Positions 16,011 through 18,847 of a DNA stretch of 21,372 nt are shown here, one piece after another. Under the pieces are notes generated by a model, which was not told the DNA's origin, did not search any database, and saw only the letters and a list, made by a program, of their open reading frames with translations. How positions within the stretch are numbered: the stretch's first letter is position 1; the number at the start of each line of letters is the position of its first letter. This DNA is from a virus, in the IMG/VR virus record IMGVR_UViG_3300034073_002121, positions 1-21,372 of that record, one strand, 5' to 3'. A program made the position numbers and the translations under genes.

Positions 16011-16117
16011 GAGCGGCGGGGCCGCAGAGAAACATTCCGCCCGGCCCGAGCGGCGGGGTCGCAGAGCCGCGCAAATATTGCGCGGGGGCGGGGAAGCGAA
16101 GCCGCAGAGCCGCAGAG
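16011..16117. repeat. CCGCAGAG repeats, left cluster
   Basis: Exact CCGCAGAG occurs at 16022, 16102 and 16110 (the last two in tandem), with one TCGCAGAG at 16059. A longer 19-base direct repeat, GAGCGGCGGGG-(C/T)-CGCAGAG, spans 16011-16029 and 16048-16066 with one mismatch. There is no open gene here. The right cluster at 16950-17106 uses the same octamer. I cannot name the element. Confidence 0.6.
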
Positions 16118-16199
16118 AAAGAAACCGGTTGTTGTCCGGTTGTTGTTCCGATAGAGTATCCGCAGGGCATTTCCGCCCTCTTAACTAGAAAGGTAGACC

Positions 16200-16895
16200 A
16201 TGCGTGGCATCATCTATCAGGGCCCGAGCCTATACGACGGCAAGCCCATCGTCGTTATCGCGACCTATTCCGAGCGGAACACGAAAACCGGAGGGGTAGT
16301 TCAAACCTATATCCTGCGCGCCGACATGAACCCGCTTGAAGCAAGCAAGACCGGCGACGATGCATCAATCTGTGGCACGTGCCCGCATCGCGGCACGCCC
16401 ACAACCGACCCCGCACGCAAGCAAGCGAAGGGCCGCACGTGTTACGTGAACCTCGGGCAAGGCGTGTTGATCACCTATCGCTCATTCCTGCGCGGCGTGT
16501 ATCCTGACGCGCAGACAACCGACGCGCGGCGCGCGATAGGGCGGGGGCGCGTCGTGCGCGTCGGAACCTATGGCGACCCCGCCGCCGTTCCGTCGCATGT
16601 ATGGGACGACCTGCTAGCAGAGGCGGAATCCCATACCGCATACACGCACGCGTCAGGATGGCGCCCGGAAATCGCGATGCAAAGCGCCGACAGTCTCGAG
16701 CAAGCCCGCGCCCATTGGGCCGAGGGGCGCCGCACGTTCCGCGTGCTTGTCGACCTCGGCGACCTTATGCCCGCGCAAGAGGTCCTATGCCCGGCAAGCA
16801 AGGAAGCAGGGCGCCGCACAACTTGCGCCGCGTGCAAGCTCTGCGGCGGCAATGCCACCCGCTCGCCTAAATCCGTGGCCATCGTGCAGCACTAA
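16200..16895 (+). CDS. Cys-rich phage/plasmid protein (DUF7227-like)
   Basis: The product is 231 residues. It contains ICGTCPHRG near residue 60, then TCYVNLGQGVLITYRSF near 80, RVGTYGDPAAVPSHVW near 123, AMQSADSLEQARAHWAEGRR near 159, and a C-terminal LCPASKEAGRRTTCAACKLC followed by GG. I recognise this series from a widespread phage and plasmid protein family (I believe DUF7227) that may relate to metal or Fe-S binding: seven Cys in CxxC-type sets. No biochemical role is established. The leader TAGAAAGGTAGACC-ATG gives a good site at 16187-16199. A perfect hairpin (16899-16918) ends the gene. It is the last plus gene of the block and is convergent with the nuclease gene at 17033. Family from memory, not searched. 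Confidence 0.8.
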   Translation: MRGIIYQGPSLYDGKPIVVIATYSERNTKTGGVVQTYILRADMNPLEASKTGDDASICGTCPHRGTPTTDPARKQAKGRTCYVNLGQGVLITYRSFLRGVYPDAQTTDARRAIGRGRVVRVGTYGDPAAVPSHVWDDLLAEAESHTAYTHASGWRPEIAMQSADSLEQARAHWAEGRRTFRVLVDLGDLMPAQEVLCPASKEAGRRTTCAACKLCGGNATRSPKSVAIVQH

Positions 16896-16918: not shown

Positions 16919-16949
16919 ACCTCTCACCTATGCACCCAGTGCATGGGAC

Positions 16950-17106
16950 CCGCAGAGCTATGCACGCCGCGCAGAGCAAAGGCGCAAGGCCGCAGAGCCG
17001 CAGAGCCGCAGAGCTATGCACCAGACGCATACCTACAACGAACCCGCAGAGCCCAAACCAAGCCGCAGAGCCGCAGAGCAACGAGCCTCGCAGCGAACCC
17101 GCAGAG
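16950..17106. repeat. CCGCAGAG repeats, right cluster
   Basis: Exact CCGCAGAG starts at 16950, 16990, 16998, 17006, 17044, 17063, 17071 and 17099, with a GCGCAGAG at 16969. Three copies in a row at 16990-17013 are head to tail. CTATGCAC also recurs (near 16927, 16957 and 17014). The right end lies inside the coding end of the nuclease gene, where the reverse-strand CTCTGCGG is translated. Confidence 0.8.
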
Positions 17107-17473
17107 CATCAAACATAGGGCCAAGAGCCTCGAACCTCGCACCCTCAGTCCCCGAGACCCCAGTTTTTCTAAGGTCTAGTCCTTTGTCCCCGTCAAAAAG
17201 GTGAATGAATCCAGTGGCTTGGGTCTTTACCAAGAAAAAAGTGGAGCCTCCGCGAGCCCAGTAGGCTAAATTCCACGCAACCTGATGGGGGCTAACCAGA
17301 ACCGCGTTGTTCTTTGATACTTTGAGTTCGCACCAAAAAGGCAGCCCATCCCACACGATATGGACATCAGGAACCCCGCCTCCGTGGGCGTTTTCTATGC
17401 GTGTAGCGAATGCCTTCGGGGGCAGGTTAGTTCTGATCTGTGTCCAGAAGTTCGATTCGGGGCCTTGGCTCAC
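17033..17473 (-). CDS. VRR-NUC/PD-(D/E)XK-like nuclease with repeat-encoded tail
   Basis: The product is 146 residues. Residues 1-90 match a small PD-(D/E)XK enzyme of the VRR-NUC type: E27 in TRIENAHGGG, PD at 35-36 (GVPDVHIVW), E49-L-K51 (FWCELKVS) and a following SPHQVAWNLAYWA helix with Q64. These would bind Mg and cut branched or damaged DNA; such proteins often accompany phage replication or packaging genes. The start is GTG 17471-17473, inside the small terminase gene (47-base overlap), giving MSQGPESNFWTQIRTN. The last 25 or so residues (VRCEARCSAALRLGLGSAGSL) are read through CTCTGCGG repeats, so the natural C-terminus was probably shorter. TAG is the stop. All motif residues are present. 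Confidence 0.75.
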   Translation of the reverse strand: MSQGPESNFWTQIRTNLPPKAFATRIENAHGGGVPDVHIVWDGLPFWCELKVSKNNAVLVSPHQVAWNLAYWARGGSTFFLVKTQATGFIHLFDGDKGLDLRKTGVSGTEGARFEALGPMFDALRVRCEARCSAALRLGLGSAGSL

Positions 17474-17975
17474 GGGGTGTCACATCCTTGAACTTGCCCT
17501 CGATCTGGAAGGCTTGGGGATACATCTGTTGAAGCTTGGCGAGACGGGAGACAATCTCATCCTTCGACATCTGATCGATCTGGTTGATGTTCTCGCGCCG
17601 GTCAACAGTCAACCCGCCGAGGGCAGACCTGATCTTCTCAGCGTTGATCGCAGCCGAGAAGTGACCAGCCTCCTCAGCACCCTTCGACAACTCCGACAGG
17701 CGTTGCAGCTGGCCGATGGTGGTGACCCCATACCGACGCTCTCGCTCCTCGCGAAGCTCTTGGATGTAGTCGAGAACGTGGGGGAAATCCCGCCCGTTGA
17801 GAAGCTTCGACGCGATCTCTCGTGCGGTGGTGTGAGCATACCCAGCCTGCCGGGCACACTCAGCATTCGAGAACACCCCCTCGACATACTTCTGAGCGAA
17901 CGTCATCTGCCGGTTGGTGAGCTTGCGCCCATGCTCTTCCTCGAGCCGTTCTTTGACTTCCTTCGATACCTTCAC
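17427..17975 (-). CDS. terS: Terminase small subunit
   Basis: The product is 182 residues from GTG 17973-17975, preceded by a perfect AAGGAGG site 7 bases away; a longer frame to 18017 lacks any such site. It matches the Terminase_2 (PF03592) plan: KLTNRQMTFAQKYVEG, SNAECARQAGY and TTAREIASKLLNG as the helix-turn-helix DNA-binding domain (about residues 16-65), then a coiled-coil oligomer helix (VLDYIQELREERERRYGVT) and a Glu/Lys-rich end. It recognises packaging-site DNA and stimulates the large subunit. It is about 10 kb from the large terminase and separated from it by a plus-strand block, which is unusual. A promoter candidate lies just upstream (18003-18031) in the TGAGGACA-rich region. 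Confidence 0.85.
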   Translation of the reverse strand: MKVSKEVKERLEEEHGRKLTNRQMTFAQKYVEGVFSNAECARQAGYAHTTAREIASKLLNGRDFPHVLDYIQELREERERRYGVTTIGQLQRLSELSKGAEEAGHFSAAINAEKIRSALGGLTVDRRENINQIDQMSKDEIVSRLAKLQQMYPQAFQIEGKFKDVTPREPRPRIELLDTDQN

Positions 17976-18044: not shown

Positions 18045-18369
18045 TGAGGACAGCTGAGGCGGAGCAACTGTCCTCAGCTGTCCTCAGGTGTCCTCAAATT
18101 TGCCCCTGAAACCCCCCTTCCCAGAGGTGTTTGTTGTCAGGTTGCATGGAAACAGCAGGCACAGGGCATGTAGACAACACAAAGTGAGGACAGTGAGGAC
18201 ACTTGGCAAAATGAACTGTCCTCAGGCAAGTGACCCGTAACCCATTGATCTGTTTCAAGAAAAAGAGGGGTGAGGACAGTGAGGACGCTGAGGCGGGTCA
18301 TTCCCACTTTTTTTTTTCAGAAAACGAAAATCATTCAGCCCGGAAAAGTGTCCTCACTGTCCTCACCCC
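18045..18369. repeat. TGAGGACA box array with 20-base inverted repeat
   Basis: TGAGGACA is at 18045, 18185, 18194 and 18271; TGTCCTCA at 18069, 18079, 18089, 18217, 18349 and 18358, each 8 bases; a degenerate TGAGGACG is at 18280. Three lie exactly 10 bases apart (18069, 18079, 18089); the paired boxes at 18185, 18271 and 18349 are 9 bases apart. The two strings 18267-18286 and 18350-18369 are perfect 20-base complements around 63 bases that include ten consecutive T (18308-18317). Such phased boxes next to an AT-rich segment are what replication iterons or cooperative operators look like. I cannot name the protein that would bind them. Confidence 0.85.
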
Positions 18370-18473: not shown

Positions 18474-18502
18474 TTGACAACCTCCTCGACCGGCCCTAGT
18501 CT
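18474..18502 (+). promoter_or_regulatory. Promoter of the right plus-strand genes
   Basis: TTGACA (18474-18479) is a perfect -35; after 17 bases TAGTCT (18497-18502) is a weak -10 (3 of 6). It sits just after the operator candidates and about 35 bases before the first ATG at 18536. The GC-rich spacer and weak -10 resemble alphaproteobacterial promoters. Confidence 0.55.
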
Positions 18503-18535
18503 ACAACCATTCAACAACTACGGAAGGAAGCAGAG

Positions 18536-18847
18536 ATGAACTACGCGAACCTGATCAGCTACAGCGACGTTGCGCCTTACGAGGTGTTGGCTGTGAGCAA
18601 GAGCGGCAGGCAGATCACGGTGCGGGCCATGCGTGCCGAGCGTGACCCGAGCTGGAAGCCTGAGATCGTGCCCGGTGGGTTTCTGGGGCACTACGTCAAC
18701 CAGAGTGAGCAGCGTTGGATCATCACCCCTAACGAGAGTGGGGAGCCGATGAAAGCGCACAAGCGCGCCGATGGTTACTACTGGTCTGCGTTTGGCAAGC
18801 ACCGGCTCGAGGCCCAGCCTCGCGCGTTCTACGACTACAACTTCTGA
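18536..18847 (+). CDS. Small phage protein of unknown function
   Basis: The product is 103 residues: MNYANLISYSDVAPYEVLAV, then VRAMRAERDPSWKPEIVPGG, FLGHYVNQSEQRWIITPNES and AQPRAFYDYNF at the end. I recognise it as a conserved phage-encoded family with MKAERDP-type and FYDYNF endings and unassigned function. The start follows GGAAGGAAGCAGAG at ideal spacing and is the first gene after the promoter at 18474. The 20-base gap to the next gene holds its GAGGAG site. Its place as first gene of the rightward operon suggests early expression. Confidence 0.75.
   Translation: MNYANLISYSDVAPYEVLAVSKSGRQITVRAMRAERDPSWKPEIVPGGFLGHYVNQSEQRWIITPNESGEPMKAHKRADGYYWSAFGKHRLEAQPRAFYDYNF

Follow-up and report, generated by a model that had tools for sequence, protein, structure and literature searches.

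A lineage-specific box array upstream of terS in an uncultivated phage as a probable replication origin read by the phage's own primase

The ori and crr iterons of P4 are octamers, and two iteron regions are needed in that system. In P4, short repeats at the origin are read by the C-terminal winged helix of the alpha protein, a primase (PMC4234260). In SPP1, pac spans the terS promoter and start, and the HTH of SF6 TerS is nearly sequence-blind (PMC4737164). Replication origins have hardly ever been established for lytic phages from the environment, and in the literature covered, which included few subscription journals, we found no description of a system pairing an AEP primase with iterons.

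Here we analyzed an array of short boxes in a 21,372-nucleotide fragment of an uncultivated phage (the window, meaning the whole stretch of DNA analyzed). No better-known close relative of this phage was found. Its structural genes, encoding TerL, portal, GroES and an internal virion protein with a transglycosylase, point to a podovirus-like phage that is distant kin of the pelagiphages HTVC023P and HTVC027P. The array lies between the terminase and the rightward early-like genes, the gene-free position assigned to it in the original prediction; indeed, the gap from terS (about 17975) to 18536 holds no gene with support. The features of this region are as follows.

17033 to 17473, minus strand: gene for a PDDEXK-type nuclease, directly downstream of terS and a conserved neighbour (family alignment; one relative matches PHROG_2165 and PHROG_93)
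17427 to 17975, minus strand: terS, terminase small subunit, with a GTG start at about 17975 (PHROG_51, 1.6e-18; Pfam Terminase_2 PF03592, 1.1e-10)
18045 to 18052, plus strand: box 1, TGAGGACA (exact match)
18069 to 18076, 18079 to 18086 and 18089 to 18096, minus strand: boxes 2 to 4, three TGTCCTCA at 10-bp spacing (exact matches)
18185 to 18201, plus strand: boxes 5 and 6, a TGAGGACA pair at 9-bp spacing (exact matches)
18217 to 18224, minus strand: box 7, TGTCCTCA (exact match)
18267 to 18369, no strand: perfect 20-bp inverted repeat framing 63 bp (computed)
18271 to 18287, plus strand: boxes 8 and 9, TGAGGACA and TGAGGACG, spaced 9 bp apart and making up the left arm of the inverted repeat (sequence)
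18308 to 18317, no strand: T10/A10 tract, with an A-tract at the matching place in relatives (sequence and relatives)
18349 to 18365, minus strand: boxes 10 and 11, two TGTCCTCA spaced 9 bp apart and making up the right arm of the inverted repeat (exact matches)
18474 to 18502, plus strand: possible rightward early promoter, TTGACA-17 nt-TAGTCT, with a weak -10 (sequence; the TTGACA half and the spacing recur in relatives)
18536 to 18847, plus strand: first rightward (early) gene (PHROG_19789, 1.4e-9)

Exact copies of TGAGGACA/TGTCCTCA occurred 11 times in the window, ten at 18045-18365 and one stray at 2826. The expectation for the whole 21-kb window was 0.74, and none of 100 dinucleotide shuffles reached 11 copies. 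The ten exact boxes that had been predicted in some 320 bases were thus recovered, in a span of 321 bp. They are locally enriched, with 10 of the 11 window copies in the array, which answers the proposed check on their genome-wide rate. One more site, TGAGGACG at 18280-18287, made an eleventh box, and degenerate copies, TGAGGCG, were found at 18055 and 18289. Within clusters, the start-to-start spacing was 9 or 10 bp, the phase given in the original prediction, such that the 11 boxes form short direct repeats spaced by about one helical turn. The inverted repeat described there, framing 63 bases with a run of ten T, was likewise recovered: it was perfect over 20 bp (18267-18286 and 18350-18369), grew to 23 bp at 96%, and consisted of two box pairs, with the T10 tract between them. 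The G+C content was 51% in the array region vs 60% in the window. A consensus scan did not detect the possible promoter at 18474-18502.

The neighbourhood of the array was partly conserved. The PHROG_2554 protein (16200-16892, plus strand) faces the pair formed by terS and the PDDEXK nuclease in nearly all relatives; its gene, terS, the nuclease gene (17033-17473, minus strand) and the array are conserved as a module, whereas the early neighbours vary and the identity of the first rightward gene differs between relatives. Many near-tandem copies of CCGCAGAGC occur at 16020-16120 and 16930-17110, on both sides of the PHROG_2554 gene.

Relatives were collected via TerS in viral contigs (eighty) and via the primase (many more); a TerS search for relatives in bacterial genomes returned none. 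In nearly all of about 100 terS-bearing relatives, a single array of boxes was located upstream of terS, and in most cases an A-tract stood at the corresponding position. The array therefore recurs at the same place in relatives, as the original prediction had asked to be checked. Only one array was seen in each long contig; one of 51.6 kb, for example, had one cluster. The box sequence was lineage-specific, with a general form of xxxxxAC over 7-8 bp and AC always last. The types included TGTTTAC, TGATTAC, TGAGTAC, TGAGGAC, ATTTAC, TGCATAC, TTAATAC, TGATGAC, GGATGAC, TCATGAC and TTAGTAC, as well as TTTCTAC, ATGCTAC, GTTAC and TATAC types in a distant clade. The boxes of one array changed together inside an otherwise conserved region. 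Thus, between L080 and L088, several boxes shared one identical substitution and there were few other differences. Because the boxes change in concert, a trans-acting protein that reads all of them must exist.

Repeats of other kinds were also observed. In HTVC027P, a distant cultured pelagiphage, the only repeat upstream of terS was a different, irregular one. The repeats upstream of terS were of the CAAGC type in HTVC027P and of the GCGAG type in 023Pt_psg01 (L095:11177-11313 and L096:3394-3510), and HTVC023P carried CTAGGAAA five times upstream of terS (L408:11680-11771). In one relative, the product of a plus-strand gene (L104:8356-9207) matched the NCBIfam TIGR-Tas RNA-guided endonuclease model at 2.6e-21, below the curated cut-off; PHROGs labels this family transposase. 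The repeat-rich stretch that precedes the gene (L104:7779-8330) may be a guide array.

We compared close relatives that differ in their boxes. In one such pair, G020 (TGAGTACA) and L179 (GGATGACA), most genes were 93-100% identical over 12.7 kb (SNF2, 99%; UvrD, 100%; terS, 97%), and gp34 and a few small genes differed more than the rest. The two primases had 10 differences, 8 of which clustered within a single 50-residue bin of the C-terminal domain: more than 420 residues were identical, followed by a short C-terminal stretch that was GGECYLKKNIKKDDGSRKQLRVW in one and GGDCYQRKYITKDDGKSKYLRVW in the other. By comparison, three pairs of primases with the same box (92-96% identity) had zero changes in that stretch.

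Primase/box pairs from about 30 loci were used to derive a rule. Residue 474 (G007 numbering; 473 in L207) corresponded to box base 4, with H for T, K for G and T for A. Similarly, residue 476 (475 in L207) corresponded to base 3, with A or S for T and N for A. In chemical terms, N commonly contacts adenine, and K or R commonly contact guanine. The rule was written before new loci were fetched, and it was correct in three of three new close genomes (L338, L311 and L327, the latter two being a sister pair). It was violated in the distant L369, from a clade at about 44% identity, where N occurs with T at base 3. Further exceptions were L118 (N, with C at base 3) and L179 and L343 (R, Y), of which L343 repeats the L179 case.

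Mutual information was calculated for 1,560 variable columns of the primase, SNF2, DUF7307, gp34, UvrD, PolA and TerS. In this unsupervised test, which compares columns sharing one history and is not a formal phylogenetic test, primase residue 474 ranked first of all columns for base 4 (0.74; next, 0.54) and residue 476 ranked first for base 3 (0.59; next, 0.50). The base 4 result was stable, residue 474 being first in three subsets. For base 3, a SNF2 column tied with residue 476 in the main clade alone (0.59 vs 0.57). No convincing partner column for base 5 was found among the seven proteins. The change of base 3 from T to A paralleled that of the residue from A/S to N on at least six tree edges. 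Some other columns outscored 474 and 476 in spanning-tree concordance, a measure less clear than mutual information as it counts A and S as different and counts related lineages repeatedly.

The primase gene lies beyond the end of the window; in the nearest relative, it is encoded ~8 kb further right. The wing of the window's primase was deduced from L207 and L208, whose DNA is 95-98% identical to that of L010; the latter has an array of the window's layout and box, but its contig ends just before the wing. The evidence for this assignment is strong but indirect, because wings can change in near-identical primases. In the window's clade, the wing has K473 and N475 (L207 numbering) and the box type is TGAGGAC. 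The AlphaFold model of the L207 primase (L207:5577-7112) had a mean pLDDT of 84. In this model, residues 432-492 form a winged helix (pLDDT about 84-92), and K473 and N475, placed by counting from invariant residues, alternate on the first wing strand (471-477). The fold of the catalytic part matched the CAPP Prim-Pol domain (E 4e-11) and RSF1010 RepB', the G007 homologue matched the Pfam AEP-TOTE primase domain PF22548, and PHROGs calls the family primase. Together, the comparisons, which extended to hundreds of relatives, indicate that the window phage's primase recognizes the boxes via two residues of its last domain, and we infer that this C-terminal winged helix binds the origin.

Homologous primases, 26-38% identical, were found in cultured phages. 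In DMU1 (L406), GAGCAACC occurred 11 times vs 1.3 expected, with arrays preceding both the primase gene and terS. In PMBT28 (L407), TGGAACG occurred 23 times vs 6.7 expected, with one array preceding the primase gene and another within a gap at about 43.6-43.9 kb. The Klebsiella phage VLCpiS6a (L411) has the PMBT28 box and also two arrays. In all three, the boxes have AAC where xAC stands. The PMBT28 wing has K with G at base 4, in agreement with the rule, and R or K at the second wing position is paired with G, as it is in L366 and L380. JeffCo also fits, but its boxes alone are not above chance (6 vs 3.7). DMU1, PMBT28 and VLCpiS6a each also encode an adenylosuccinate synthetase of a type associated with 2-aminoadenine genomes, so their box adenines may carry a modification.

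Based on these data, we assign a probability of roughly 0.77 to the reading that the phage's replication origin is located here, with the array as its iteron cluster and each box bound by the C-terminal winged helix of the phage's own AEP primase. Each 7-8-bp box would be one site for this domain, with K473 and N475 reading box bases 4 and 3, respectively. With primases bound next to one another on these boxes, which are phased and inverted about the A-tract, the DNA would be opened or bent, and primase, UvrD-like and SNF2-like helicases and family A polymerase would be brought together at a single site. Physical binding, duplex opening and initiation are in this sense predictions from sequence.

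With less assurance, we incline to a wider view: that across a large group of lytic phages with a global distribution, an AEP primase reads an iteron origin directly via a wing code of two residues and two bases (H-T, K-G and T-A; A/S-T, N-A and R-G). Origin and primase would switch together, so that nearly identical phages would come to have origin types incompatible with one another, and the primase sequence would allow the origin to be predicted, also in cultured phages of Acinetobacter, Salmonella and Klebsiella. If so, origin and initiator would be known together for a large group, with a protein-DNA code readable from sequence and dozens of matched natural variants in which to ask why origin specificity diversifies. 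A possible driver is the need to keep co-infecting relatives or satellites from using the phage's origin, or the opposite.

GC skew was evaluated and rejected as evidence for an origin. The minimum in the window, at 18520, coincided with the divergence point of gene direction. Across contigs, minima were at or near the array in most, and maxima lay at gene convergence, ~16 kb away; in G001, the trend reversed across a reversed SNF2 gene. The skew thus measures gene direction, and the minimum at 18520 is unusable as origin support. Of the skew switch proposed as a check, the switch itself is present at the array, but it is equally explained by gene direction.

Alternatively, the primase might bind the array as a regulatory or copy-control site, as at P4 crr, or as a priming site, with initiation occurring elsewhere. 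The two arrays each of DMU1 and PMBT28 are consistent with such a role, as is the need for two iteron regions in P4. In the window's own family, however, the single array per genome in long contigs leaves no second candidate, and we consider this explanation unlikely.

It is quite unlikely that the array is a packaging start, pac, bound by a TerS ring as in SPP1. The array is immediately upstream of terS in all relatives, the SPP1 pac repeats are at the same place (PMC4737164), and the A-tract could favour wrapping. Nevertheless, box and TerS recognition helix vary independently, on which ground TerS was rejected as the main reader; it is probably not the box reader. Specifically, L080 and L088 have identical TerS over about the first 155 aa and near-identical flanks, but different boxes (TTT vs ATT). 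Conversely, the array was unchanged where the recognition helix had been swapped wholesale, and EHASR-type helices accompanied five different boxes. Moreover, an HTH as nearly sequence-blind as that of SF6 TerS would still need a sequence-specific reader.

The TerS recognition helix (window residues about 48-60) is itself a hypervariable cassette, with KQASVL, NTASKL, VSASKL, EHASRL, VTASKL and EIASKL among its forms. The cassette has been exchanged as a whole, down to its synonymous sites, in terS genes that differ very little elsewhere (L046/L035/L041/L031/L022; the window vs L016), and the neighbouring array stays unaltered.

Other candidate readers were rejected as well. The PHROG_2554 protein and the PDDEXK nuclease beside terS had no box-linked residues by eye. 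A winged-helix-like protein of 146-155 aa has a divergent C-terminus, but its C-terminal part is identical in G020 and L179 despite their different boxes. An 80-aa winged-helix protein (L115:4974-5213) carries an identical helix whether the phage has TTT or ATT boxes, and it was not detected in some of the genomes that have an array. Finally, gp34 and DUF7307 are fast-evolving, and gp34 diverges also between phages with the same box.

That the array is the operator of a phage transcription regulator for divergent terS and early promoters is very unlikely: the promoter region is divergent, boxes lie near putative -35 regions and small winged-helix proteins of the 80-aa family are encoded nearby, but the sites are restricted to one locus and neither the 80-aa nor the 146-155-aa protein follows the boxes. 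Of the two readings offered in the original prediction, iterons at a replication origin is favoured by the single array, its conserved place and the tracking of the box with the primase winged helix; the cooperative repressor array is not, as neither dispersed sites nor a covarying repressor were found.

With respect to known systems, the array resembles SPP1 and SF6 pac in that repeats lie upstream of and at the terS start, but differs in that the box sequence does not follow TerS. As in plasmid Rep/iteron systems and lambda O/ori, there are phased short repeats and the initiator would be encoded by the replicon; the T10 tract between the inverted box pairs may correspond to the A/T-rich DNA beside the repeats of those systems. 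Unlike in those systems, the initiator would be the primase itself, and the boxes are 7-8 bp, occur in both orientations and switch in concert among many close relatives. With pRN1 ORF904, the proposed initiator shares an AEP primase and a C-terminal winged helix that would act at the origin. The pRN1 origin is a large stem-loop, explicitly without iterons, and its protein has an SF3 helicase domain, whereas here there is an iteron array whose inverted repeats are box pairs.

The likeness to P4 alpha lies in the C-terminal winged helix of the modelled window-clade primase, which is predicted to bind the origin. In P4 alpha, a TOPRIM-type primase is joined to an SF3 helicase in one protein, whereas the primase here is of the AEP type and the UvrD-like and SNF2-like helicases are encoded by separate genes. 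P4 has two iteron regions per genome, as compared with one array in the window's long relatives and two in DMU1 and PMBT28, and the switching of boxes between lineages is a feature of the present system, unlike P4. If the proposed reading is correct, AEP primases and the P4-like winged-helix reading of iterons are united in one protein. By these comparisons, the present system is outside the P4 and pRN1 families as defined but would work like P4.
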